Assembly: GCA_947445225.1 (NCBI GenBank)
Contig: CANFCX010000018.1
Span: forward strand, 1 to 33,091
Origin: Rhodospirillales bacterium
GTDB lineage: Bacteria; Pseudomonadota; Alphaproteobacteria; CACIAM-22H2
Length of the DNA stretch: 33,091 nucleotides
Reading direction: 5' to 3'
Both the position numbers and the translations under genes were made by a program. The notes below the pieces were generated by a model. The model made no database searches. It saw only the letters and a program-made list of their open reading frames with translations, and was not told the origin of the DNA. Positions 11,539-21,970 of this stretch are shown here, piece after piece (positions within the stretch are counted from its first letter, which is position 1; the number at the start of each line of letters is the position of its first letter).

Positions 11539-12930
11539 TCAGCCGAAGACGACTTTCGGCAACCAGGTGGCGAGACCGGGAAAAGTGAGCACGGCGGCGA
11601 GCCCGATGACCTGGAGGATCACGAACGGGATCACGCCGCGATAGATCTGCCCGGTCGTGATGCTGGGCGGCGCGACGCCCCGCAAATAGAAGAGCGTAAA
11701 GCCGAAGGGCGGCGTCAGAAAACTCGTCTGCAAATTGACGCCGATCAAGACCCCCAGCCACACCGGGTTGATGTCCATCGCCAGCAGGATCGGTCCGGTG
11801 ATCGGAATCACGATGAAGATGATCTCGAAGGTGTCGAGGATGAACCCCAACACGAACATGATCGCCATCACGAAAATCAATGCGCCCATGGGACCGCCGG
11901 GCATGTTGGTGAGCAGATCGGCGACAACTCGATCGCCGCCCATCATGCGGAAGACGATCGAGAAGACGGACGCGCCGAGAATGATGACAAACACCATGCA
12001 GGTCATTTCCGCCGTGCCGGACATCACTTCCTTGAGGGATTGAAGCGTCAAGCGCCCTTTCGCAGCGGACATCAGCATGGCGCCCACCGCGCCAACCGAT
12101 GCCGCCTCGGTCGCGGTCGCGATGCCCCCCAGAATCGAGCCCAACACCGCCACGATCAACAGCAACGGCGGCACCAGCGCCACCATGACATCGCGCCCCA
12201 GTGTCCGCCGTTCTTCCGCCGTCACCACCAGCGCCGGACAGCTCTTCGGGTCGAACACGGCCTTGAACACCACCCAGGCCGCGTACAACGCGACCAGCAA
12301 TAATCCGGGAATAAAGGCACCGGCGAAGAGATCGCCGACCGAAACGATGGTGGGGGCGAAGTTGCCCTTGGCCATTTGCGCCTGGGCATTCATGCCCGAC
12401 AGCATGTCCCCGGTGAAGATGAGGATCGTGGATGGCGGGATGATCTGGCCAAGCGTGCCCGCCGCGCAGATGACCCCGGTCGCCAATTTCGGGTCATAAC
12501 CGGCGCGCATCATCGCCGGCAAGCTGAGCAGGCCCATGGTCACGACGGTTGCGCCGACCACCCCGGTCGAGGCCGCGAGCAGCGCGCCCACGAACACGAC
12601 CGACAAACCCAAGCCGCCGCGCAGCGCGCCGAAGGTTCGCCCCATCGTCACCAAAAGCTGTTCGGCGATCAACGACCGCTCGAGCATCACTCCCATGAAG
12701 ATGAACAAAGGTACGGAGACCAACACTTCGTTGATCATCGAACCCATGAAGCGGCTGGCGAGGCTGCCCAAATTCGACGGATCGAACGCGCCCACGAGAT
12801 AACCGATCCCGCCAAAAATGAGCGAGGTGCCGGCGAGACTGAACGCGACAGGATAACCCAGAAGCAAAACGCCAATGATGCCAAAGAACATCGTTATGGC
12901 GAGGACCTCGCCAACCAATGGAGTCGCCAT
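11539..12930 (-). CDS. dctM: TRAP transporter large permease (DctM)
   Basis: Large membrane subunit of a TRAP transporter, 463 residues with about twelve or more hydrophobic segments, slightly longer than the usual 425-440. The family core is visible in the first half: the segment around TGVVGATVVTMGLLSLPAM, then MRAGYDPKLATGVICAAGTL and GQIIPPSTILI. This corresponds to the conserved G...P.M...GY ... GxxGxxIPPS pattern of the ion-transporter superfamily. The C-terminal half repeats it less strictly (LDTFEIIFIVIPITGPI, TPPFGFTLFYLRGV). It should form the sodium-coupled channel for the substrate delivered by the TakP-like receptor. dctQ ends four bases upstream and the two are co-transcribed; GAAGG lies upstream of the start. 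Confidence 0.93.
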   Translation of the reverse strand: MATPLVGEVLAITMFFGIIGVLLLGYPVAFSLAGTSLIFGGIGYLVGAFDPSNLGSLASRFMGSMINEVLVSVPLFIFMGVMLERSLIAEQLLVTMGRTFGALRGGLGLSVVFVGALLAASTGVVGATVVTMGLLSLPAMMRAGYDPKLATGVICAAGTLGQIIPPSTILIFTGDMLSGMNAQAQMAKGNFAPTIVSVGDLFAGAFIPGLLLVALYAAWVVFKAVFDPKSCPALVVTAEERRTLGRDVMVALVPPLLLIVAVLGSILGGIATATEAASVGAVGAMLMSAAKGRLTLQSLKEVMSGTAEMTCMVFVIILGASVFSIVFRMMGGDRVVADLLTNMPGGPMGALIFVMAIMFVLGFILDTFEIIFIVIPITGPILLAMDINPVWLGVLIGVNLQTSFLTPPFGFTLFYLRGVAPPSITTGQIYRGVIPFVILQVIGLAAVLTFPGLATWLPKVVFG

Positions 12931-12934
12931 GGCT

Positions 12935-13483
12935 TCAGCCGCCTTCCGAATAACGAAGGGCGGGCGGCAAGAGGTCCTCTTGCCGGTTGAGCACCAGGAT
13001 GGCCCGCAGCGCCAAGGCGAGCCCCTGCAGGGCGATCACCGCGGCAAAGACCAGGATGAAACTCTTGACCACGAACAGACCCGGCATGCCACCGACGTTG
13101 AGGGAACTTTCGCCAATGCTCCACGAACGCGTGACGTAGCTCCACCCCCAATTGACCACGACGAAACAAAATGGCCCGAGCAGGAAGATCGTGCCGAGCA
13201 GATCGATCCACGCCTTGGTTCGTAATGTGGCGGGCCGATAGAAGATGTCGACGCGAACATGGCCATTACGCAGGAACACGTACCCAGCCATGCCGGTGAA
13301 CATGATCCCGTTCATCCAAACATACAGGTCCTGCAGCGGGGTGTAGCTGATCGAAAAGGCATACCGCAGCACAACAATGGAAAAGCAGACCAGGACGATG
13401 CCCAGGGTGAGCCAGGAAAGAGCTCGTCCGAGCACCGTGTTAATGAAGCTTATGCCTTTGATGACCTGGGCGATGGCGCGCAC
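12935..13483 (-). CDS. dctQ: TRAP transporter small permease (DctQ)
   Basis: Small membrane subunit, 182 residues with four hydrophobic helices. The first half has the DctQ pattern: LRYAFSISYTPLQDLYVWMN, then GMAGYVFLRNGHVRVDIFY, where the G-HVRVD-Y stretch is the family signature. It pairs with DctM to form the membrane part of the transporter. The start is a GTG with GAGAGG ahead of it. It is the first gene of the dctQM pair, whose promoter must lie in the 367-base gap shared with the divergent pterin dehydratase gene. Confidence 0.92.
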   Translation of the reverse strand: MRAIAQVIKGISFINTVLGRALSWLTLGIVLVCFSIVVLRYAFSISYTPLQDLYVWMNGIMFTGMAGYVFLRNGHVRVDIFYRPATLRTKAWIDLLGTIFLLGPFCFVVVNWGWSYVTRSWSIGESSLNVGGMPGLFVVKSFILVFAAVIALQGLALALRAILVLNRQEDLLPPALRYSEGG

Positions 13484-14287: not shown

Positions 14288-14761
14288 CTATTGAGCTTTG
14301 ACCTTGGGCCAGTTCTCCATGCCCTTGGCGATCGCTGCGGGCACATCCTTGGTCCAGTTGTTCAAGGCGCCTTCGCCCGACTGCAAATACAGCTTGCCGT
14401 CGACGATCCGCCATTGTGTCGGGTCCGGCTGAACCGGCCGCGCGACGGTCATGCCCCAGGCGCAATAGCCGCCGTATTCGGGCGCGTATTTCTCCGGCGC
14501 CATGGCGAACTTGTCGCGGTTGGCGGCGGACGCGAACTGCCACTCCGCGCCGTTCCAACTGTGCTTGAACAGCGGATTGCCCTTCACCGCCTTGCCGTCG
14601 GTCCAATAGGCAACGGTGTCGAAGCCCTTGATCGCCACGCCGTCCTGATTGGCGATCGGCGAAGTGGCGGCCACCGCCACGCCCGCGAGCATCAGGCCGC
14701 CCGCGGCAAGACCGAAAATGGCAAGCGCGGCGCGCCGGCCCAACATGCTGATCGTGCTCAT
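14288..14761 (-). CDS. Exported YHS-domain protein
   Basis: A 157-residue protein with an N-terminal signal sequence (Arg-Arg at residues 9-10 of MSTISMLGRRAALAIFG; cleavage likely near VAVAA). The exported domain is of YHS type: DGVAIKGFDTVAYWTDGKAV, FKHSWNGAEWQFASAANRDK, and FAMAPEKYAPEYGGYCAWGM. This is the exported YHS layout found beside metal-handling and oxidative-stress genes, in which the Cys (YCAWG) and nearby residues may bind metal; exact function is unknown. The start is set by AAGGAG nine bases ahead. A longer reading frame upstream has no ribosome-binding site. It lies on the same strand behind the sigma/anti-sigma genes, 142 bases after the anti-sigma stop, with its own promoter candidate. 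A link to the metal-stress locus is an inference from position. Confidence 0.82.
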   Translation of the reverse strand: MSTISMLGRRAALAIFGLAAGGLMLAGVAVAATSPIANQDGVAIKGFDTVAYWTDGKAVKGNPLFKHSWNGAEWQFASAANRDKFAMAPEKYAPEYGGYCAWGMTVARPVQPDPTQWRIVDGKLYLQSGEGALNNWTKDVPAAIAKGMENWPKVKAQ

Positions 14762-14903: not shown

Positions 14904-15572
14904 TCACATTGGCCGCGCCGGCGGCATGAATCCGCCTCTGCGCCGCGATAGACCCACCAAAGCGGAGCCGGCCGCCACCATGGCCCCCGCCGCCAGGTGA
15001 ACCGCCAAATCCAGGAAAGTGATGTCGAACGTATGGAAGAATTGCAGCAGAAAAGCCGCCATGGCCGCGACACCGAGACCGGCGATCGCGGCGACCCGGA
15101 TTGGCGCCAGCGGATGGGCGCGCCTCAAAATCAACAGAAGGCTAAGGGCGATCGGCACGCCGGTCATGAGGATGAAGCGAAAGCAAGCAAAGGATTCGCC
15201 CAAAGCCCATCCATCGGTGCCATGCACCAGCCAATCTTGGTAACAATTGTCGCCACTGCTGGCCATCCACAGCACGAAGAAAGGAATCGGGACCAAACCC
15301 CAGCGTGACGAACGGCCAGGCACACTTAGGTAAAACGCGGCGATAACCGCGCCGATTGCGGTGCCCAGAATGCCGATGAGTTCGGCCAACAGAAGCGGTT
15401 CGCTCAGGCGTCCGATGGTGACATCGAGATTCGAGAATAGGGCGATGGCCACACCGCCAACGCCGCCCATCCCCACCAGCCAAAGCACCGCGCGCACCAT
15501 GGGTGGCCGCAGGCGCCGAACCGGTCTGGCTTGTGCAGCCAGGCGTGTTATCAACTGCTCGGTGGTCTCCAC
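14904..15572 (-). CDS. nrsF: NrsF-like anti-sigma factor (DUF1109)
   Basis: A 222-residue inner-membrane protein with six hydrophobic segments and a short cytoplasmic N-terminus (VETTEQLITRLAAQARPVRR), the layout of the DUF1109/NrsF family. In Caulobacter NrsF holds sigma factor SigF inactive at the membrane and releases it under heavy-metal stress. Conserved Cys and Trp residues are visible: the DNCYQDW loop and the ESFACFRF segment, two periplasm-side Cys regions suited to metal or thiol sensing. The start is GTG 15572, one base after the sigma-factor stop, with AAGAGG upstream. This gives a two-gene operon with one transcript. An in-frame extension into the sigma gene is rejected because the family begins at this point. 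Confidence 0.88.
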   Translation of the reverse strand: METTEQLITRLAAQARPVRRLRPPMVRAVLWLVGMGGVGGVAIALFSNLDVTIGRLSEPLLLAELIGILGTAIGAVIAAFYLSVPGRSSRWGLVPIPFFVLWMASSGDNCYQDWLVHGTDGWALGESFACFRFILMTGVPIALSLLLILRRAHPLAPIRVAAIAGLGVAAMAAFLLQFFHTFDITFLDLAVHLAAGAMVAAGSALVGLSRRRGGFMPPARPM

Positions 15573-15573
15573 G

Positions 15574-16155
15574 TTATCGAACCTCTTTTCCAAGCCGGGC
15601 GCGCAGCGCCTTGATCGCGCGGTGCACGTTGACCTTGAGCGCGGCAATCGATTTCCCACTCTTGCCGGACGCTTCGGCCAATGACATTTCGCGCAGCTTC
15701 AACATCTCCACCGCCTGCCTCTGCTTTGCCGGCAGAGCCGCGATAGCGTCCCCCAGACCGGCAACACGATCGCTTGTCTCCGATTCCCTCTTCGCTCGGG
15801 GATCGGCAAAGGTTTCATAGGCCTGCTGATCGAACAATTCCGCCATGTCGGTGCGGCGCCACCGTCGAAGGCCATCGATCGATCGTCGGCGGGCGATGGC
15901 GGCGATCCATGGAACAAATGGGCGCGATGGGTCGTAAGTGTGGCGGACACGGTGAACCGTCAACAATACGTCCTGGACGATGTCCTCTATCCGATCAGCG
16001 GTGCGATGATGCGACCTGATGATGGCGCGAACGTAGGGAACAACATCATGGAGAAGGCGCGCATAGGCGTGTTGGTCCCCGGTTTGCGCCGCGGCCATCA
16101 ACCGCGACCAAACCTTGTCCCTCTCGGAGTCGTGAATGTCCTTGCCTGCCGCCAT
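15574..16155 (-). CDS. sigF: ECF RNA polymerase sigma factor, SigF/ECF16-like
   Basis: A 193-residue ECF sigma factor with only domains 2 and 4. Region 2 runs AYARLLHDVVPYVRAIIRSH, IEDIVQDVLLTVHRVRHTYD, then RPFVPWIAAIARRRSIDGLR. Region 4 runs AIAALPAKQRQAVEMLKLRE and SIAALKVNVHRAIKALRARL, ending in the DNA-binding helix. Pairing with a DUF1109 anti-sigma gene places it with the SigF group, whose Caulobacter member answers chromium, cadmium and copper stress and drives buf-type operons. It is divergent from bufA across a 183-base gap that contains an ECF-like promoter pointing to bufA. The ATG at 16155 has no strong ribosome-binding site, so a start at a later Met (about 16098) is possible. 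Its own promoter could not be recognised. Confidence 0.9.
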   Translation of the reverse strand: MAAGKDIHDSERDKVWSRLMAAAQTGDQHAYARLLHDVVPYVRAIIRSHHRTADRIEDIVQDVLLTVHRVRHTYDPSRPFVPWIAAIARRRSIDGLRRWRRTDMAELFDQQAYETFADPRAKRESETSDRVAGLGDAIAALPAKQRQAVEMLKLREMSLAEASGKSGKSIAALKVNVHRAIKALRARLGKEVR

Positions 16156-16178
16156 CGCAAGATTCCCGCCCCTGGCCT

Positions 16179-16203
16179 GTAACTAAATGTGCGGCACGCC
16201 GAA
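16179..16203 (+). promoter_or_regulatory. ECF-type promoter candidate for the buf operon
   Basis: GTAACT (16179-16184) and CGAA (16200-16203) have 16 bases between AAC and CGAA. This has the AAC -35 core and CGA -10 core of ECF promoters, and resembles the GTAAC...CGAA motif I recall for Caulobacter SigF targets. Transcription would begin near 16208, about 130 bases ahead of bufA. A second, worse-spaced candidate is GGAAC at 16262-16266 with CGT at 16286. Confidence 0.55.
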
Positions 16204-16338
16204 GTGAATGATACAGGCGTTTCCGCATACGCCGGTCCGGGCGGCTTCGTCAATTATCTTGGGAACGAACACACGTCCCGGATATCGTGCAATGGGCGCC
16301 ATCCTGAATCTGCGGTTGAGATGAGGAGATTTGTTGCA

Positions 16339-16623
16339 ATGAAAGACAACGGCAACCTTCACAAGGCAATGGCGACCTCGGCTCTCGTCGCGGCGCTTTC
16401 CTTGGCGACCGCGGGCGGCGTGCTCGCCCAGGCTAAAGTTGAAATGGAAGAGTGCTACGGTATCGTCAAGGCCGGGCAGAACGATTGTGCCGTCGAGTCC
16501 CTCGGCTCGACCTGCGCCGGAACCTCAAAGGTCGACCGCCAGGTCGATGCCTATCTGCTCGTACCCAAGGGCACCTGCGCGAAAATCGCTGGCGCCGCCC
16601 TGGCCCCGCCGAAAAAGGCCTGA
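16339..16623 (+). CDS. bufA: Bufferin-type peptide precursor (DUF2282, BufA1)
   Basis: A 94-residue precursor. A signal peptide covers about residues 1-32 (hydrophobic SALVAALSLATAGGVLAQA, cleavage after AQA), followed by a short cysteine-containing core. Four Cys stand at 39, 50, 59 and 80 in the order EECYGIVKAGQNDC, GSTCAG, VPKGTCAKIAG, matching the DUF2282 pattern with its conserved ECYG...NDC and PKGTC. In Caulobacter and relatives such peptides are exported, modified by a DUF692/MNIO enzyme on Cys residues to heterocycles, and bind copper, protecting against metal stress. ATG 16339 is chosen because AGGAGA at 16324-16329 lies nine bases ahead; ATG 16321 has no such site. The next gene starts 31 bases later. 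Modification and copper binding are inferred from the family. Confidence 0.9.
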   Translation: MKDNGNLHKAMATSALVAALSLATAGGVLAQAKVEMEECYGIVKAGQNDCAVESLGSTCAGTSKVDRQVDAYLLVPKGTCAKIAGAALAPPKKA

Positions 16624-16654
16624 CCAGCACTCAGCCCACACGCAGCACGGATCG

Positions 16655-17518
16655 ATGACGCCTCACGGTACGCTTCCGGCCGACAGGGCCGGTATCGGGC
16701 TGCGCGCCCCTCATTACCGCGACGTCATCGACTTCCGGCCGAATGTCGGGTGGTTCGAGGTTCACACCGAAAACTACCTCGGCGGCGGCGCCTGGCCGTC
16801 TTTCCTCGATGCGGTGCGGAAAGAGTATGCGGTTGCCTTCCATTGCGTTGGGCTTTCCCTGGGCAGCGCATCGCCGCCGGATTCGGTTCTGCTTGGCCGC
16901 ATCAAGACCTTGGCCGATCGCCTGGAACCGGCGATCGTCTCGGAGCATCTGTCCTGGAGCATCGTTGACGGCGCCTATCTCAACGACCTGCTCCCCTTGC
17001 CCTACACACCGGAATCGCTGGCGAATTTCAGCCGCAATGTCGATGCGATCCAGGCGACGCTCAAACGTCCCCTTCTGATCGAAAACCCCTCCGTCTATGT
17101 CGCGCTGTCGGGTGAGATGACGGAGCCGGAGTTCTTGAGCGAACTTGTCCGCGCCACCGGCTGCGGCATCCTGCTCGACGTCAACAACCTCCATGTTTGC
17201 GCCCACAATATCGGAATCGATCCCCTTTCTTACCTGAACGCGTTGCCGCGCGGGTCGGTGGGCGAGATCCATGTCGCCGGGCACAAACGTCAGCCCGAGA
17301 GCGATGGCGGCTCGATCCTGATCGACGATCACGGCTCGCCGGTGCCCGATCCGGTGTGGGACCTGTACGCTGCCGCCATTCGCCGCTTCGGGCGGGTGCC
17401 GACTCTGATCGAGCGCGACAATGACATCCCCGCGTTGCCGGTCTTGGTCGCGGAGGCCGCGCGCGCCGATGTGGTCGCAGCCAACGCCGAGGAGTTCCGT
17501 CATGCCGATGCTGCTTGA
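16655..17518 (+). CDS. bufB: MNIO-family peptide-modifying enzyme (DUF692, BufB)
   Basis: A 287-residue TIM-barrel enzyme of the multinuclear non-heme iron-dependent oxidase family, related to MbnB. It should act in the cytoplasm on the BufA precursor. Likely metal ligands are all visible: His63 (FHCVGLSLGS), Glu97-His98 (SEHLSW), Glu143 (LLIENP), Asp175 and His180 (LLDVNNLHVCAHN), His206 and His210 (EIHVAGHK), Asp224-Asp225 and His226 (LIDDHGSPV), and Glu253 (LIERDND). The N-terminal AGIGLRAPHYRDV and FEVHTENYLG are typical of the family. ATG 16655 is the sensible start, since a longer frame runs through bufA. Its 3' end overlaps bufC by 17 bases, so the two are translationally coupled. No key residue is missing, so the enzyme looks active. 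Confidence 0.93.
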   Translation: MTPHGTLPADRAGIGLRAPHYRDVIDFRPNVGWFEVHTENYLGGGAWPSFLDAVRKEYAVAFHCVGLSLGSASPPDSVLLGRIKTLADRLEPAIVSEHLSWSIVDGAYLNDLLPLPYTPESLANFSRNVDAIQATLKRPLLIENPSVYVALSGEMTEPEFLSELVRATGCGILLDVNNLHVCAHNIGIDPLSYLNALPRGSVGEIHVAGHKRQPESDGGSILIDDHGSPVPDPVWDLYAAAIRRFGRVPTLIERDNDIPALPVLVAEAARADVVAANAEEFRHADAA

Positions 17519-18284
17519 GGTTCAGCGGGCGATCGGCCGGTTTGTTCTCGATCGCGATCCGAGTGCGAAAGGCGGCGACCTCGCGGGCATGGTCAAGCCG
17601 TTTCATCGGCTCGCGGTCTATCGCAACAACACCTTCGTTCTTTTGACCGAATCGCTCCGCGGAATTTTCCCGGTCGTGAACCGCTTGGTCGATGCGCGTT
17701 TCTTCGACTACGCGGCCCATGAATTCATCGGCACCCAGCCACCGGTTGGCCCGTGCCTGTTCGAATATGGCGGGGCATTTCCGGCGTTTCTTGCCGGATT
17801 CGAGCCGTGCCGCGAACTAACCTATCTTCCGGACGTGGCCCGGTTTGAGTGGGCGCTTCATGAATGCGCGCACGCTCCGGAGGCCTCGGTGGTCGACGCG
17901 GCGACCGTTCGGCGCGTTCCGCCAGAGGACTATCCCAATTTGGTTTTCAGACTCAATCCGGCCTGCCGAATGTTCGCCTCAATCTACCCGATCGACACCA
18001 TCTGGCGTGCCAACCAAGCCGAAGGCGACGTCGGGAAGGTGAACCTCGACGAAGGTCCGGCGCGGCTGCTCGTCCGCCGCGACGGCTTCGCCGTCGGCTT
18101 CGATCGGCTGACTCCTGGAGAGTTTGATTTGCTCGCCGCGCTGGCCGTGGGACAGACCTTGGAGCAGGCATGCGCAACCGCGCTTGCCGCCTCACCGGTT
18201 GATTTAGGCGGTGCGTTGGCGCGGTTCCTGGCCAATGGCTTCCTGGCCGATGCGGGGCCGGGAAAAAGCGGGTATCCATCGTGA
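17502..18284 (+). CDS. bufC: DUF2063 partner protein (BufC)
   Basis: A 260-residue soluble protein of the DNA-binding-domain-like DUF2063 family, always found beside DUF692 genes. The N-terminal part has the typical QRAIGRFVLDRDP and FHRLAVYRNNTFVLLTESLR, followed by FPVVNRLVDARFFDYAAHEF and LPDVARFEWALHECAHAPE. The C-terminal part (about residues 140-250) is less conserved. In buf systems this protein is thought to deliver the precursor to the MNIO enzyme, acting like a RiPP recognition element; that role is family knowledge, not visible in the sequence. ATG 17502 lies seven bases after AGGAG (17490-17494), inside the 3' end of bufB. The stop overlaps the next start by four bases. Confidence 0.9.
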   Translation: MPMLLEVQRAIGRFVLDRDPSAKGGDLAGMVKPFHRLAVYRNNTFVLLTESLRGIFPVVNRLVDARFFDYAAHEFIGTQPPVGPCLFEYGGAFPAFLAGFEPCRELTYLPDVARFEWALHECAHAPEASVVDAATVRRVPPEDYPNLVFRLNPACRMFASIYPIDTIWRANQAEGDVGKVNLDEGPARLLVRRDGFAVGFDRLTPGEFDLLAALAVGQTLEQACATALAASPVDLGGALARFLANGFLADAGPGKSGYPS

Positions 18285-18772
18285 CGCCCGGTGTGAATGG
18301 CGGATCGCCTTTCGGCAAGGCTGTCTCCGTTTGCCTTGCCGCGCTTGACCGCTTTCCCACGTCCTTGCTCGCGCTTATCTTTCGGCTGGCGGCCGCGGGT
18401 GTGTTTTTCAAATCGGGGCTGACCAAGGTGACGGGGTTTCCGCCCCAGTTGACCCAGTCGACTTTATTCCTTTTTGAAAATCGCTATCCGGTGCCGCTGT
18501 TGTCGCCGGAATTGGCGGCGCAACTCGCCACGACGTTTGAACTTGTCTGTCCGGTGTTGCTTGTCTTGGGCCTAGCGGCGCGATTGGCCACCTTGCCGCT
18601 GCTGGCGATGACGGCTGTGATCGAAGTCTTTGTTTATCCGCTCGCCTGGGCCGACCATTTGCAATGGACTGCCCTGCTGCTTTTCATTTTGGTGCGCGGA
18701 CCCGGGCGGCTGTCGCTTGATGCCCTGATCGCCCCCGCATTCTTCGCGCGCCTCGGCATTCTTCGCCGCTGA
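18281..18772 (+). CDS. bufD: DoxX-family membrane protein (BufD)
   Basis: A 163-residue inner-membrane protein with four hydrophobic segments and the DoxX pattern: IFRLAAAGVFFKSGLTKVTG near the start, then a Glu-containing helix (TTFELVCPVLLVLGLAARLA) and AMTAVIEVFVYPLAWADHLQ. DoxX proteins are common fourth members of buf operons. Their role there is unclear; a redox or quinone-linked function at the membrane is often suggested. The start is GTG 18281, overlapping the bufC stop in GTGA, so translation is coupled. The gene ends the operon, 11 bases before the convergent tctA stop, with only a weak five-pair stem (18773-18786) between them. Confidence 0.88.
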   Translation: MTPGVNGGSPFGKAVSVCLAALDRFPTSLLALIFRLAAAGVFFKSGLTKVTGFPPQLTQSTLFLFENRYPVPLLSPELAAQLATTFELVCPVLLVLGLAARLATLPLLAMTAVIEVFVYPLAWADHLQWTALLLFILVRGPGRLSLDALIAPAFFARLGILRR

Positions 18773-18783
18773 TAGCCCGGCGG

Positions 18784-20364
18784 CTATTTCGCCCGGGATT
18801 TGCCACTTCCGGCCTCTGTTCGGCCATCCGTCGGGGCGACATCTTCTTGAACCCGGCGCCGTACGAAAAAGCGCTTTTCGGTGAGCCACAGGCGGAGCCT
18901 GGACAATAAGGGCCAGAACAACAGAACGACAGCCAGGCCCGAGATGCTGGCAACCAGTCCGTTCGCCCAGAAAATCGACAAATCGCCCTGGGACATCAGC
19001 ATGGCCTGTCGGAACGAACTCTCCGCGCGATCCCCAAGCACGATGGCGAGTACCATCGGGGCCAACGGATAGTCGAGCTTCTTGAAGATGTAACCAACCA
19101 CGCCGAACAGAAGCACGAACCAGACGTCCAGGATGGCGTTGTGAACGGTGTAGGCACCGATGGCACACAACACCAGGATCACGGAGGCGATGATGCTGAA
19201 CGGAATGCGCAGGATCGCGGCGAACCACGGCACCGCCGCCAGAACAACGATGAGGCCCACGATATTGCCGAGATACATGCTGGCGATCAGGCCCCAGACA
19301 AATTCCTTCTGCTCCACGAACAGCATGGGCCCAGGCTGGAGCCCCCAGATCAGCAAGCCGCCCAGCAGAACCGCGGCCGTCGGCGAACCCGGGATGCCGA
19401 GGGTGAGCATGGGCAGCAAGGCGCTGGTTCCCGCGGCATGGGCGGCGGTCTCCGGCGCCACCACACCCTCGATGCGGCCGGTTCCGAAGGCGTCCCCGTC
19501 CTTGGACATCCGCTTGGCGATGCCATAACTCATGAAGGAGGCGGGCGTCGCGCCGGCCGGCGTGATCCCGAGCCAGCAGCCGATGATCGCGGACCGCAAC
19601 GACGTGGCCCAGTATTTCGGAAGCTCCTTCCAGGTCTCCAGCACGATGCGCGGATTGATGCGTGCGTTTTTCCCCTTGAAGGTTAGCCCTTCCTCGATCG
19701 TCAGGAGAATCTCGCCGATGCCGAACAAACCGATGACCACGACCAGGAAATCGACGCCGCGCATAAGTTCGTAGGAGCCGAAGGTCAGCCGCAGCCGGCC
19801 GGTGATGCTGTCGAGCCCGATGGCCGCGAGCCAGAAGCCGATCATCATCGAGGCGACGGTCTTGAAAGGTGATCCGCGGCCAAGCCCCACGAAGCTGCAA
19901 AAGGCCAGGAACATGACCGAAAACAGCTCCGGCGGCCCGAATCTCAACGCAAACTGCGCGACCAGCGGCGCCAGAAAGGTGATCAGCACGACCGCGAACA
20001 ACGCGCCAACAAAGGAAGAGGTGAAGGCGGCGGTCAGGGCCTCGGCGGCTTGTCCCTTTTGCGCCATGGGGTAACCGTCGAAGGTGGTCGCCACCGACCA
20101 CGGTTCACCCGGAATGTTGAATAGAATCGACGTGATGGCGCCGCCGAACAGAGCGCCCCAATAGATGCAGGACAACATGATGATCGCCGAAGTCGGCGAC
20201 ATCGAAAAGGTGAGCGGCAGCAGGATCGCCACGCCATTGGCGCCGCCGAGGCCGGGCAGGACGCCGATGATGACTCCCAACACGATCCCCACGACCATGA
20301 GGACAAGGTTGTAGGGCTGGAGGACGGTGGCGAAGCCGCCAATAAGCGATGAAATTTCATCCAT
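18784..20364 (-). CDS. tctA: Tripartite tricarboxylate transporter large permease (TctA)
   Basis: Main membrane subunit of a TTT-type uptake system, 526 residues with about eleven or twelve hydrophobic segments. Family motifs are clear: GVLPGLGGANGVAILLPLTF near the N-terminus, then GGAITSILFNIPGEP, the G-A-x-x-S-I-L-x-N-x-P-G signature; both recur in the second half (ITPAGATPASFMSY, LTLGIPGSPTAAVLLGG). The system imports citrate or other di- and tricarboxylates with a periplasmic Bug receptor. The C-terminal tail is charged and extends some 20 residues past the last helix, which accounts for the length. It follows tctB by 21 bases. A large shifted frame on the same strand is a shadow. Confidence 0.95.
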   Translation of the reverse strand: MDEISSLIGGFATVLQPYNLVLMVVGIVLGVIIGVLPGLGGANGVAILLPLTFSMSPTSAIIMLSCIYWGALFGGAITSILFNIPGEPWSVATTFDGYPMAQKGQAAEALTAAFTSSFVGALFAVVLITFLAPLVAQFALRFGPPELFSVMFLAFCSFVGLGRGSPFKTVASMMIGFWLAAIGLDSITGRLRLTFGSYELMRGVDFLVVVIGLFGIGEILLTIEEGLTFKGKNARINPRIVLETWKELPKYWATSLRSAIIGCWLGITPAGATPASFMSYGIAKRMSKDGDAFGTGRIEGVVAPETAAHAAGTSALLPMLTLGIPGSPTAAVLLGGLLIWGLQPGPMLFVEQKEFVWGLIASMYLGNIVGLIVVLAAVPWFAAILRIPFSIIASVILVLCAIGAYTVHNAILDVWFVLLFGVVGYIFKKLDYPLAPMVLAIVLGDRAESSFRQAMLMSQGDLSIFWANGLVASISGLAVVLLFWPLLSRLRLWLTEKRFFVRRRVQEDVAPTDGRTEAGSGKSRAK

Positions 20365-20385
20365 GGACGATGCCGTTTTCTTGGC

Positions 20386-20886
20386 TCAGTAACCGAGCAT
20401 CGTTTCGATCGGTCCCTTCGGCAGGGGCACCAGAAACCAGATTTCAAAGACACAAAACGTGGCCAACGGCACACCCACCGCGACGGGGAGTATCGTCCAG
20501 TCGCGATAGCCGCCGATCCACCACATGAAATAGGCGATGAAGAGAGCGGTGGCGAAATAGATCCCTATCCAGGGAATGACGAGGACGAATATCGTCGTGG
20601 GAATAAAAACGGACAGCACCGGACCGAATTGGCGCCGCTCCACAAAGACCCGGCGATCGTTGCCGATCGCGGCCTGCACGAAAACGACGAGACTGGAAAG
20701 TATGAGGAGGAGACTCACATAAAAGGGGAAGTAACCCGATCTCGGGCCGTCTGACGCCCATCCCGCGCCGATCCGCACGCTGTCCCACATGACGACCGCG
20801 CCGATGGCGATCAGGAACGCGGCGACAATCATCTCCGCGATACGCATAGATGATCCACGCGCCGCCGAGGGCGTATCATCGGTCAC
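20386..20886 (-). CDS. tctB: Tripartite tricarboxylate transporter small subunit (TctB)
   Basis: A 166-residue small membrane protein with four hydrophobic segments. The TctB layout is visible: an initial helix (MIVAAFLIAIGAVVMWDSVR), the G-P..GYFPFYVSLLLIL segment that marks the family, and a C-terminal FVLVIPWIGIYFATALFIAY pair. It is poorly conserved in general, so the call rests partly on its place between tctC and tctA. GTG 20886 has GGGGGAG some 13 bases upstream. ATG 20844 is an alternative at the first helix but lacks a ribosome-binding site. Confidence 0.88.
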   Translation of the reverse strand: MTDDTPSAARGSSMRIAEMIVAAFLIAIGAVVMWDSVRIGAGWASDGPRSGYFPFYVSLLLILSSLVVFVQAAIGNDRRVFVERRQFGPVLSVFIPTTIFVLVIPWIGIYFATALFIAYFMWWIGGYRDWTILPVAVGVPLATFCVFEIWFLVPLPKGPIETMLGY

Positions 20887-20920
20887 GTTTATTGTTTCTC
20901 CCCCAACCCCGGTGCGCCCG

Positions 20921-20947
20921 CAAGGGCGGCCGCTCGGGCCGCCCTTG
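20921..20947 (-). terminator. Strong hairpin between tctC and tctB
   Basis: CAAGGGCGGCC (20921-20931) and GGCCGCCCTTG (20937-20947) form a perfect 11-bp stem with a five-base loop. No T-run follows on the minus strand, so it is probably a partial terminator or a 3'-end stabiliser giving more tctC than tctBA mRNA, not a full stop. Confidence 0.6.
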
Positions 20948-20959
20948 TACCATTGATTA

Positions 20960-21970
20960 TTAGTTTGCGAGGAACCCGGCCTCTTTCATGAGGTTGAAGT
21001 GAACGGCTTCTTCGCGCGACACCCAGTTCCGGTACTCATCGCCGATCATGAACGTGGTGTTGAAGGCGCCGCTCTTCATAAGGTCCAGCCATTCCGGAGT
21101 CTCCCGCACCTTACGCATCACGCCGACATAATAATCGACCGCTGCTTGGGGAACGCCGGGTGAGGTAAAGACGCCGCGCAACATCACATATTCCACATCC
21201 AGCCCGGATTCCTTGCAGGTTGGAATATCGCTCCAGGCCATCGTCGCGGTCACCTTCTCGGTGATCGGCAGGCGTTTGCTGTCGAACACGCAGAGCGGCC
21301 GCAAAGTGCCCGCCTTCCAGTGGGAAACCGCTTCGTTCGGATTGTTGACGGTCGAATCGACATGTTTGCCCACCAGCTCGGTCGCGACCTGACCACCGCC
21401 GGCGAAAGGCACATAGGTCAGTTTCTGGCCGGCAGCCTTTTCGACGGCCACGGTGATGATCTGGTCTTCCTGCTTGGCCCCGGTGCCGCCCATTTTGAAC
21501 TTGTTCGGGCCGCCGGCCTTGATGGCGGCGAGATATTCCCCGGCGGTCTTGTAGGGAGAGTCGGCGTTGACCCAGAGGACGAACTCATCGAGCGCCAGCA
21601 TCGCCACCGGCGTCATGTCCTTCCAATTGAACGGTATGCCCGTCGCCAACGGTGTCGTGAACAGACTCGAGAGCGTGATGATCAGCTTGTGCGGGTCAGC
21701 TTTGGAGTCCTTCACATCGAGGAACCCTTCGCCACCGGAGCCACCGGCTTTGTTGACGACCTGCATCGGCTGTTTCATCAGGTTGTTCTTGGCAATGGTC
21801 CCCTGAATAACGCGCGCCATCAAATCGGCGCCGCCCCCGGTGCCCGCCGGCACGATGAATTGGACAGGCCGGGTGGGCTCCCAGGCCTGAGCAACGGCAT
21901 CGCCGCCGAACGAGGCAGCCAGCATCGCCGCGCCGGACAACGCTACAAACCCCTCAACGATTCTGCGCAT
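20960..21970 (-). CDS. tctC: Tct/Bug-family periplasmic solute receptor (TctC)
   Basis: A 336-residue receptor with a Sec signal peptide (cleavage near DAVAQA). The mature part starts WEPTRPVQFIVPAGTGGGAD, the Bug-family beginning with the ligand-contacting first loop. It continues MQVVNKAGGSGGEGFLDVKD, KMGGTGAKQEDQI with the second ligand loop, YVPFAGGGQVATELVGKHVD and RGVFTSPGVPQAAVDYY. It should bind a carboxylate and hand it to TctAB. Bug proteins vary widely in ligand, so the substrate is open. AGGGAGG lies ahead of the ATG. It is first in tctC-tctB-tctA, the usual order, and is probably the most abundant product. Confidence 0.94.
   Translation of the reverse strand: MRRIVEGFVALSGAAMLAASFGGDAVAQAWEPTRPVQFIVPAGTGGGADLMARVIQGTIAKNNLMKQPMQVVNKAGGSGGEGFLDVKDSKADPHKLIITLSSLFTTPLATGIPFNWKDMTPVAMLALDEFVLWVNADSPYKTAGEYLAAIKAGGPNKFKMGGTGAKQEDQIITVAVEKAAGQKLTYVPFAGGGQVATELVGKHVDSTVNNPNEAVSHWKAGTLRPLCVFDSKRLPITEKVTATMAWSDIPTCKESGLDVEYVMLRGVFTSPGVPQAAVDYYVGVMRKVRETPEWLDLMKSGAFNTTFMIGDEYRNWVSREEAVHFNLMKEAGFLAN

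Follow-up and report, generated by a model that had tools for sequence, protein, structure and literature searches.

A probable Buf1 bufferin locus with its own divergent ECF sigma/anti-sigma pair in a Rhodospirillales genome

Introduction

The DNA analysed here (the window, 33,091 nucleotides of a Rhodospirillales genome) raises the question as to whether six neighbouring genes form a functional bufferin system that is switched on by a sigma factor of its own and, if so, which of the known systems it most resembles. The original prediction, made from the sequence alone, had proposed a complete locus of this kind, making a modified, exported peptide against metal stress. Our analysis indicates that the locus is real and probably functional, and that it represents a further case of an already known system, its layout being that of Caulobacter CC3252-CC3257 and of gigPABT/rpoQ-rsqA of Cupriavidus. 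One more species is added to a widespread copper-peptide system; the main value of the locus is comparative, and lies in the promoter evidence and in the subtype of the anti-sigma factor NrsF.

Gene content and organization

The locus comprises two divergent units. On the minus strand (14904-16155), nrsF (14904..15572; 222 aa, GTG start) was assigned on the basis of its Pfam NrsF match (3.8e-16), its conserved residues and a structural model, while sigF (15574..16155; 193 aa) encodes an ECF sigma factor with Sigma70_r2 (1.9e-11) and Sigma70_r4_2 (4.2e-9) matches. On the plus strand (16339-18772), bufA (16339..16623; 94 aa) encodes a Buf1 (DUF2282) precursor (1.8e-22) and is followed by bufB (16655..17518; 287 aa), encoding an MNIO maturase (2.5e-96), bufC (17502..18284; 260 aa), a DUF2063 partner protein (1.3e-18), and bufD (18281..18772; 163 aa, GTG start), a DoxX-family membrane protein (2.6e-16). 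The Pfam matches of all six proteins lie above the curated cut-offs, and the core of a bufferin cluster, i.e. the precursor, MNIO, DUF2063 and DoxX genes, is complete. The predicted gene order and divergence, the single base (15573) that separates the stop of sigF from the start of nrsF, and the overlaps of bufB with bufC (17 bases) and of bufC with bufD (4 bases) were all borne out to the base. Furthermore, a comparison of neighbourhoods showed that dozens of other genomes have this gene set in an unchanged order, a recurrence far beyond chance.

The precursor and its predicted maturation machinery

BufA scored 79.5 bits against the DUF2282 family (Pfam cut-off 22.4), and its residues Cys39, Cys50, Cys59 and Cys80 correspond to the four conserved Buf1 cysteines. 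The gene is preceded by a ribosome-binding site, GAGGAG (16323..16328, plus strand), and the protein begins with a signal peptide whose likely cleavage site, judged by eye from the sequence, falls between VLA and QA. In Buf1 proteins it is the two central cysteines that undergo modification, and the outer pair is joined in a disulphide; in keeping with the background on which the original prediction drew, the Buf1 of Caulobacter bears Cys-derived thiooxazoles that bind copper (PMC12452194). The eight-residue loop between the middle cysteines of BufA seemed unique among 80 relatives, but 7 of 45 relatives from the class share it, and the idea of a unique core loop was discarded.

The MNIO enzyme BufB is recognized by the NCBIfam model MNIO_BufB (NF050167, named 'MNIO family bufferin maturase') with 346.9 bits (cut-off 310), and falls below the cut-offs of other MNIO families (HvfB, 214 vs 360; MbnB, 54 vs 325). 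Alignments to solved relatives, including the 3BWW, MbnB and TglH structures, identified H63, H98, E143, D175, N178, H206, D224, H226, E253 and D255 as the counterparts of the MNIO iron ligands and catalytic Asp, which were defined for VcMbnB (PMC8888699); these ten residues are nearly invariant among 83 relatives. The assertion that the key enzyme residues are all intact is correct for these MbnB-equivalent ligands and the catalytic Asp. Four other positions, each conserved in 95% or more of the same 83 relatives, differ in the window, where BufB carries C64 for Gly, L79 for His, G153 for Ser and I186 for His. As 3BWW has Leu at position 79 and MbnB has Ile at position 186, these two positions are not general ligands. 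The BufB tree did not resolve the place of the window protein among the BufB proteins of Buf1 loci and, consequently, we make no claim of a transfer from Burkholderiales.

The promoter upstream of bufA

A putative SigF-type promoter, TGTAAC-N16-CGAA (16178..16203, plus strand), faces bufA; it was recognized with the help of the Caulobacter SigF site, GTAACC-N16-CGAA (PMC3511200), and of the ECF16 consensus, (T/C)GTAAC-N17-CGAA (PMC8315932). Transcription is predicted to start near 16210, which would give a leader of approximately 130 bases. An Rfam scan returned two tRNAs only, and no known RNA element in this leader.

In order to place this motif in context, the 450 bases upstream of bufA were scanned on the bufA strand for GTAAC-N16/17-CGAA with at most one mismatch. 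The motif was present in 43 of 43 rows with a divergent sigF (approximately 1.9 in shuffled sequence), three of which are copies of the window. The remaining 40 of 40 loci were gathered by BufB similarity and include many close kin (Burkholderiaceae), so they do not amount to 40 independent cases. Only 5 of 32 loci without sigF carried the motif before bufA. Within the class, the corresponding figures were 14 of 15 genomes with sigF (17 of 18 rows, three genomes being represented twice) and 2 of 27 genomes without it. The motif usually ends approximately 50 bases 5' of a bufA start that has a good ribosome site; the window departs from this pattern, with a spacer of 16 and a leader of approximately 130 bases as against 17 and approximately 50 in most relatives. 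A motif facing sigF was found as well in 7 of the 15 class genomes with sigF. For the window, a SigF motif in that direction was considered and rejected, as only weak matches occur there.

The sigma factor itself is up to 57% identical to the divergent sigma factors of Paraburkholderia buf loci, and has regions 2 and 4, an NrsF/DUF1109 partner and the target motif (with a spacer of 16), features by which, rather than by an ECF16-specific model, it is assigned to ECF16. It might nevertheless be argued that bufA is transcribed by a housekeeping or other sigma factor and that sigF-nrsF controls other genes. The 2023 Gig study states that there is no evidence linking gig transcription to the adjacent sigma factor, and gig was still expressed after rpoQ had been deleted (PMC10304878); the window motif is itself off in spacer and distance. 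We consider this explanation improbable, as the motif is strictly paired with a divergent sigF across loci. Moreover, exact matches across the window's own genome number four, no more than in a reversed-pattern control (12 in all), and with so few a chance occurrence in the 183-base intergenic stretch is unlikely. The adjacent SigF probably switches the locus on. The pairing of the GTAAC/CGAA motif with a divergent sigF over 40 loci also makes sigma control of gig directly testable.

The NrsF subtype

NrsF, whose gene adjoins sigF, matches PF06532 with 60 bits (vs 26.8), and its AlphaFold model (mean pLDDT 78.5, only 62 in the block 101-110) contains six membrane helices; a search of PDB structures with this model gave no match at E<=0.001. 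The NrsF of Caulobacter relies on C131 and C181 (PMC3511200), and AbcS of Brucella carries C129 and C179 (PMC8315932). In the window protein, C130 is the equivalent of C131, His180 stands at the place of C181, and there is an extra cysteine, Cys110; the two-Cys pair of the Caulobacter-type sensor (C131 and C181 equivalents) is incomplete here. All of 39 NrsF proteins encoded next to a BufB relative have Cys110 and Cys130, nearly all have His180, and none has Cys at position 180. In a tree of 77 NrsF proteins, the 31 that possess the Caulobacter pair stand apart from all others (support 99/94), and the window protein groups with that of the alphaproteobacterial MAG L071 (100/96) on the C110/C130 side, which holds 41 rows in all. 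The Cys110/Cys130/His180 set is common to the window and 40 relatives, mostly Burkholderiales, and marks a subtype of this likely metal sensor that has received less study. A third flavour was observed in a small group (L157, L158, L159 and L161), with CxxC at the first Cys and Glu replacing C181.

Hydropathy and the AlphaFold model put C110 and C130 on either side of the loop that connects helices 3 and 4, and H180 at the start of the one that connects helices 5 and 6. This topology would probably place all three residues in the periplasm, where they may make up one site. Perhaps, then, NrsF is here a distinct sensor type common to Gig-type loci, in which Cys110, Cys130 and His180 form a single metal-binding or redox site replacing C131/C181 and the sigma operon is not self-activated; we put this forward tentatively and with more doubt than conviction. 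Since the window NrsF is of the Gig-like Burkholderiales type, C131/C181 sensing as described for Caulobacter is not simply transferable to it. The C. metallidurans ortholog treated in PMC3511200 is said to have both C131 and C181, and Cupriavidus may carry both NrsF types. The existence of two types provides a clear basis for mutagenesis on anti-sigma metal sensing.

Distribution, and probable loss in a sister genome

Besides the window's own genome, no fewer than 24 in the class have NrsF and DUF2282 genes in divergent orientation on one contig, within approximately 1.5 kb; this is a lower bound, counted by hand among the matches listed for a sample of 385 genomes, 134 of which have DUF2282. 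Genome G006 has the identical six-gene layout with a Caulobacter-type NrsF and different neighbours. Within the family, DUF2282 was found in 2 and MNIO in 3 of 23 genomes, the window's own included. Another family genome, G007, has two divergent MNIO genes (L090 and L091) and no DUF2282 match.

The window's own genome (2.6 Mb, 157 contigs, 97.5% complete) holds one MNIO, one DUF2063 and one NrsF gene, and two DUF2282 genes. The second bufA (L092, contig C118, 5553-5825; 90 aa, four Cys) is unlinked, lies downstream of a cation-diffusion-facilitator-like gene and ends 28 bases from the contig end; the SigF motif is absent there. A second full buf operon at this site was considered and rejected, given the single MNIO, DUF2063 and NrsF matches in the genome, although a missing stretch may lie beyond the end of C118, 28 bases past bufA. 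One BufB may serve two BufA precursors.

A genome of the same genus, G009, is 90-93% identical to the flanks of the window over 15 kb; there, the nrsF end is joined to the bufC end, and sigF, bufA and bufB are missing. The junction (L102, contig C27, 7372-8318) corresponds to a deletion of approximately 2.9 kb, from window position 15164 to approximately 18095, and bufD is intact with 82% identity. The nrsF-bufC fusion could be a true loss or an assembly error. As both ends of the locus and the scar are retained in G009, the locus was probably present in the common ancestor; it is thus probably older than the split from G009, which would have lost it afterwards if its assembly is correct. The notion of a recently inserted island was rejected on the same grounds, and because GC is flat across the window.

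Such a loss suggests that the window locus might itself be a decaying relic, as it would be in G009, and most genomes of the family do lack DUF2282 and MNIO. However, all six reading frames are open, and the ribosome site, active-site residues and cysteines are intact, and we regard this scenario as very improbable.

Transporter genes flank the region on both sides, with TRAP-type genes (DctQ match) at 11539-13483 and tripartite tricarboxylate transporter genes (TctA match) at 18784-21970, all on the minus strand; the TctA of G009 is 96% identical. A YHS-domain (seleno)protein gene (14288-14761, minus strand) lies downstream of nrsF, and its copy in G009 has an in-frame TAG. Membership of this gene in the unit was rejected, as it occurs in 0 of 80 related loci.

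Proposed mode of action

Taken together, the evidence suggests, with fairly high probability in our judgement, a Buf1 bufferin locus controlled by an ECF sigma/anti-sigma switch of its own, of a regulatory type nearest to gigPABT/rpoQ-rsqA of Cupriavidus. The self-regulated bufferin reading of the original prediction agrees with the protein families and operon layout, with a four-Cys precursor that carries an export signal, with an enzyme whose active site is intact and with the sigma-type promoter before bufA. What the sequences themselves show are the six genes, their intact sites and the promoter motif, together with the association of this motif with sigF from locus to locus. In unstressed cells, the membrane protein NrsF would keep SigF bound. 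Thiophilic metal ions, most likely copper, arriving at the periplasmic face of NrsF would release SigF, which would then transcribe from the GTAAC/CGAA promoter before bufA. BufB and BufC would convert the central C50 and C59 of BufA to thiooxazoles prior to Sec export, and the mature peptide would chelate copper in the periplasm, with BufD in some supporting role at the membrane. The thiooxazole chemistry and copper binding are carried over from Caulobacter Buf1; that SigF is released, and that Cu, Cr, Cd or Au act as inducers, likewise comes from other species. By this analogy, metal induction and cysteine modification would be expected in the present organism. The explanation is weakened by the 16-base spacer and long leader, by an NrsF without the Caulobacter C181, by gig expression despite the rpoQ deletion, and by G009 living without most of the locus.

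The same machinery might also respond to another main signal, with Cr, Cd, Au/Ag or hypochlorite coming first and copper being secondary. Cr and Cd trigger SigF of Caulobacter (PMC3511200), the name gig stands for gold-induced (PMC8224329, PMC10304878) and HOCl triggers the related Brucella switch (PMC8315932); the different Cys/His set of NrsF here means that the signal may differ as well. Copper is, however, the inducer common to Caulobacter and Cupriavidus, and the Buf1 product binds copper, which leaves another main signal a rather unlikely, if quite conceivable, option beside the copper-led switch.

Comparison with known systems

The Hvf/oxazolin clusters (HvfABC; PMC13097082, PMC13419390) employ an MNIO enzyme and a DUF2063 partner to form Cys thiooxazoles, as proposed for the window. 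Their precursors are of the EGKCG type, whereas that of the window is DUF2282, and the window BufB, BufC and BufD remain under the Hvf family cut-offs (NCBIfam). As a class, the locus is no different from the Buf1 clusters of Antoine et al. (PMC12452194), which combine DUF2282, MNIO, DUF2063 and DoxX genes with sigma/NrsF companions; these companions occur in Buf1 and not in Buf2 clusters.

The nrsF-sigF/CC3254-CC3257 locus of Caulobacter crescentus (PMC3511200, PMC8224329) has all six genes in an identical divergent arrangement, and its DUF2282 gene is likewise preceded by a GTAACC-N16-CGAA promoter. SigF controls the buf operons in that organism, Cr, Cd and Cu all induce its regulon, and mutation of sigF makes the cells sensitive to Cu (PMC3511200, PMC8224329). 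The two loci differ in the sensor, C131 and C181 in Caulobacter being set against His at the second place and the extra Cys110 in the window, and in that sigF of Caulobacter is itself preceded by a SigF-like promoter, whereas the window has its weak sigF-facing matches only.

Closest in regulatory type is gigPABT/rpoQ-rsqA of Cupriavidus metallidurans (PMC10304878, PMC5413113), described as being 'in a divergon situation' with rpoQ and the gene of a putative antisigma factor, and induced by Cu and Au (PMC10304878). Its gene order and divergent sigma/anti-sigma pair are those of the window, as are a precursor of 94 aa with four Cys and the DUF692, DUF2063 and DoxX genes. By its genome kin the window belongs to another class, its spacer is 16 and its leader longer, and its NrsF is at most 42% identical to any relative. 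The Cupriavidus loci L029 and L038, which serve as stand-ins for C. metallidurans RsqA, have the same NrsF Cys110/Cys130/His180 set. The window shares with the Gig divergon its divergence, the P-A-B-T order, this residue set (via L029 and L038) and a motif on the buf side only.
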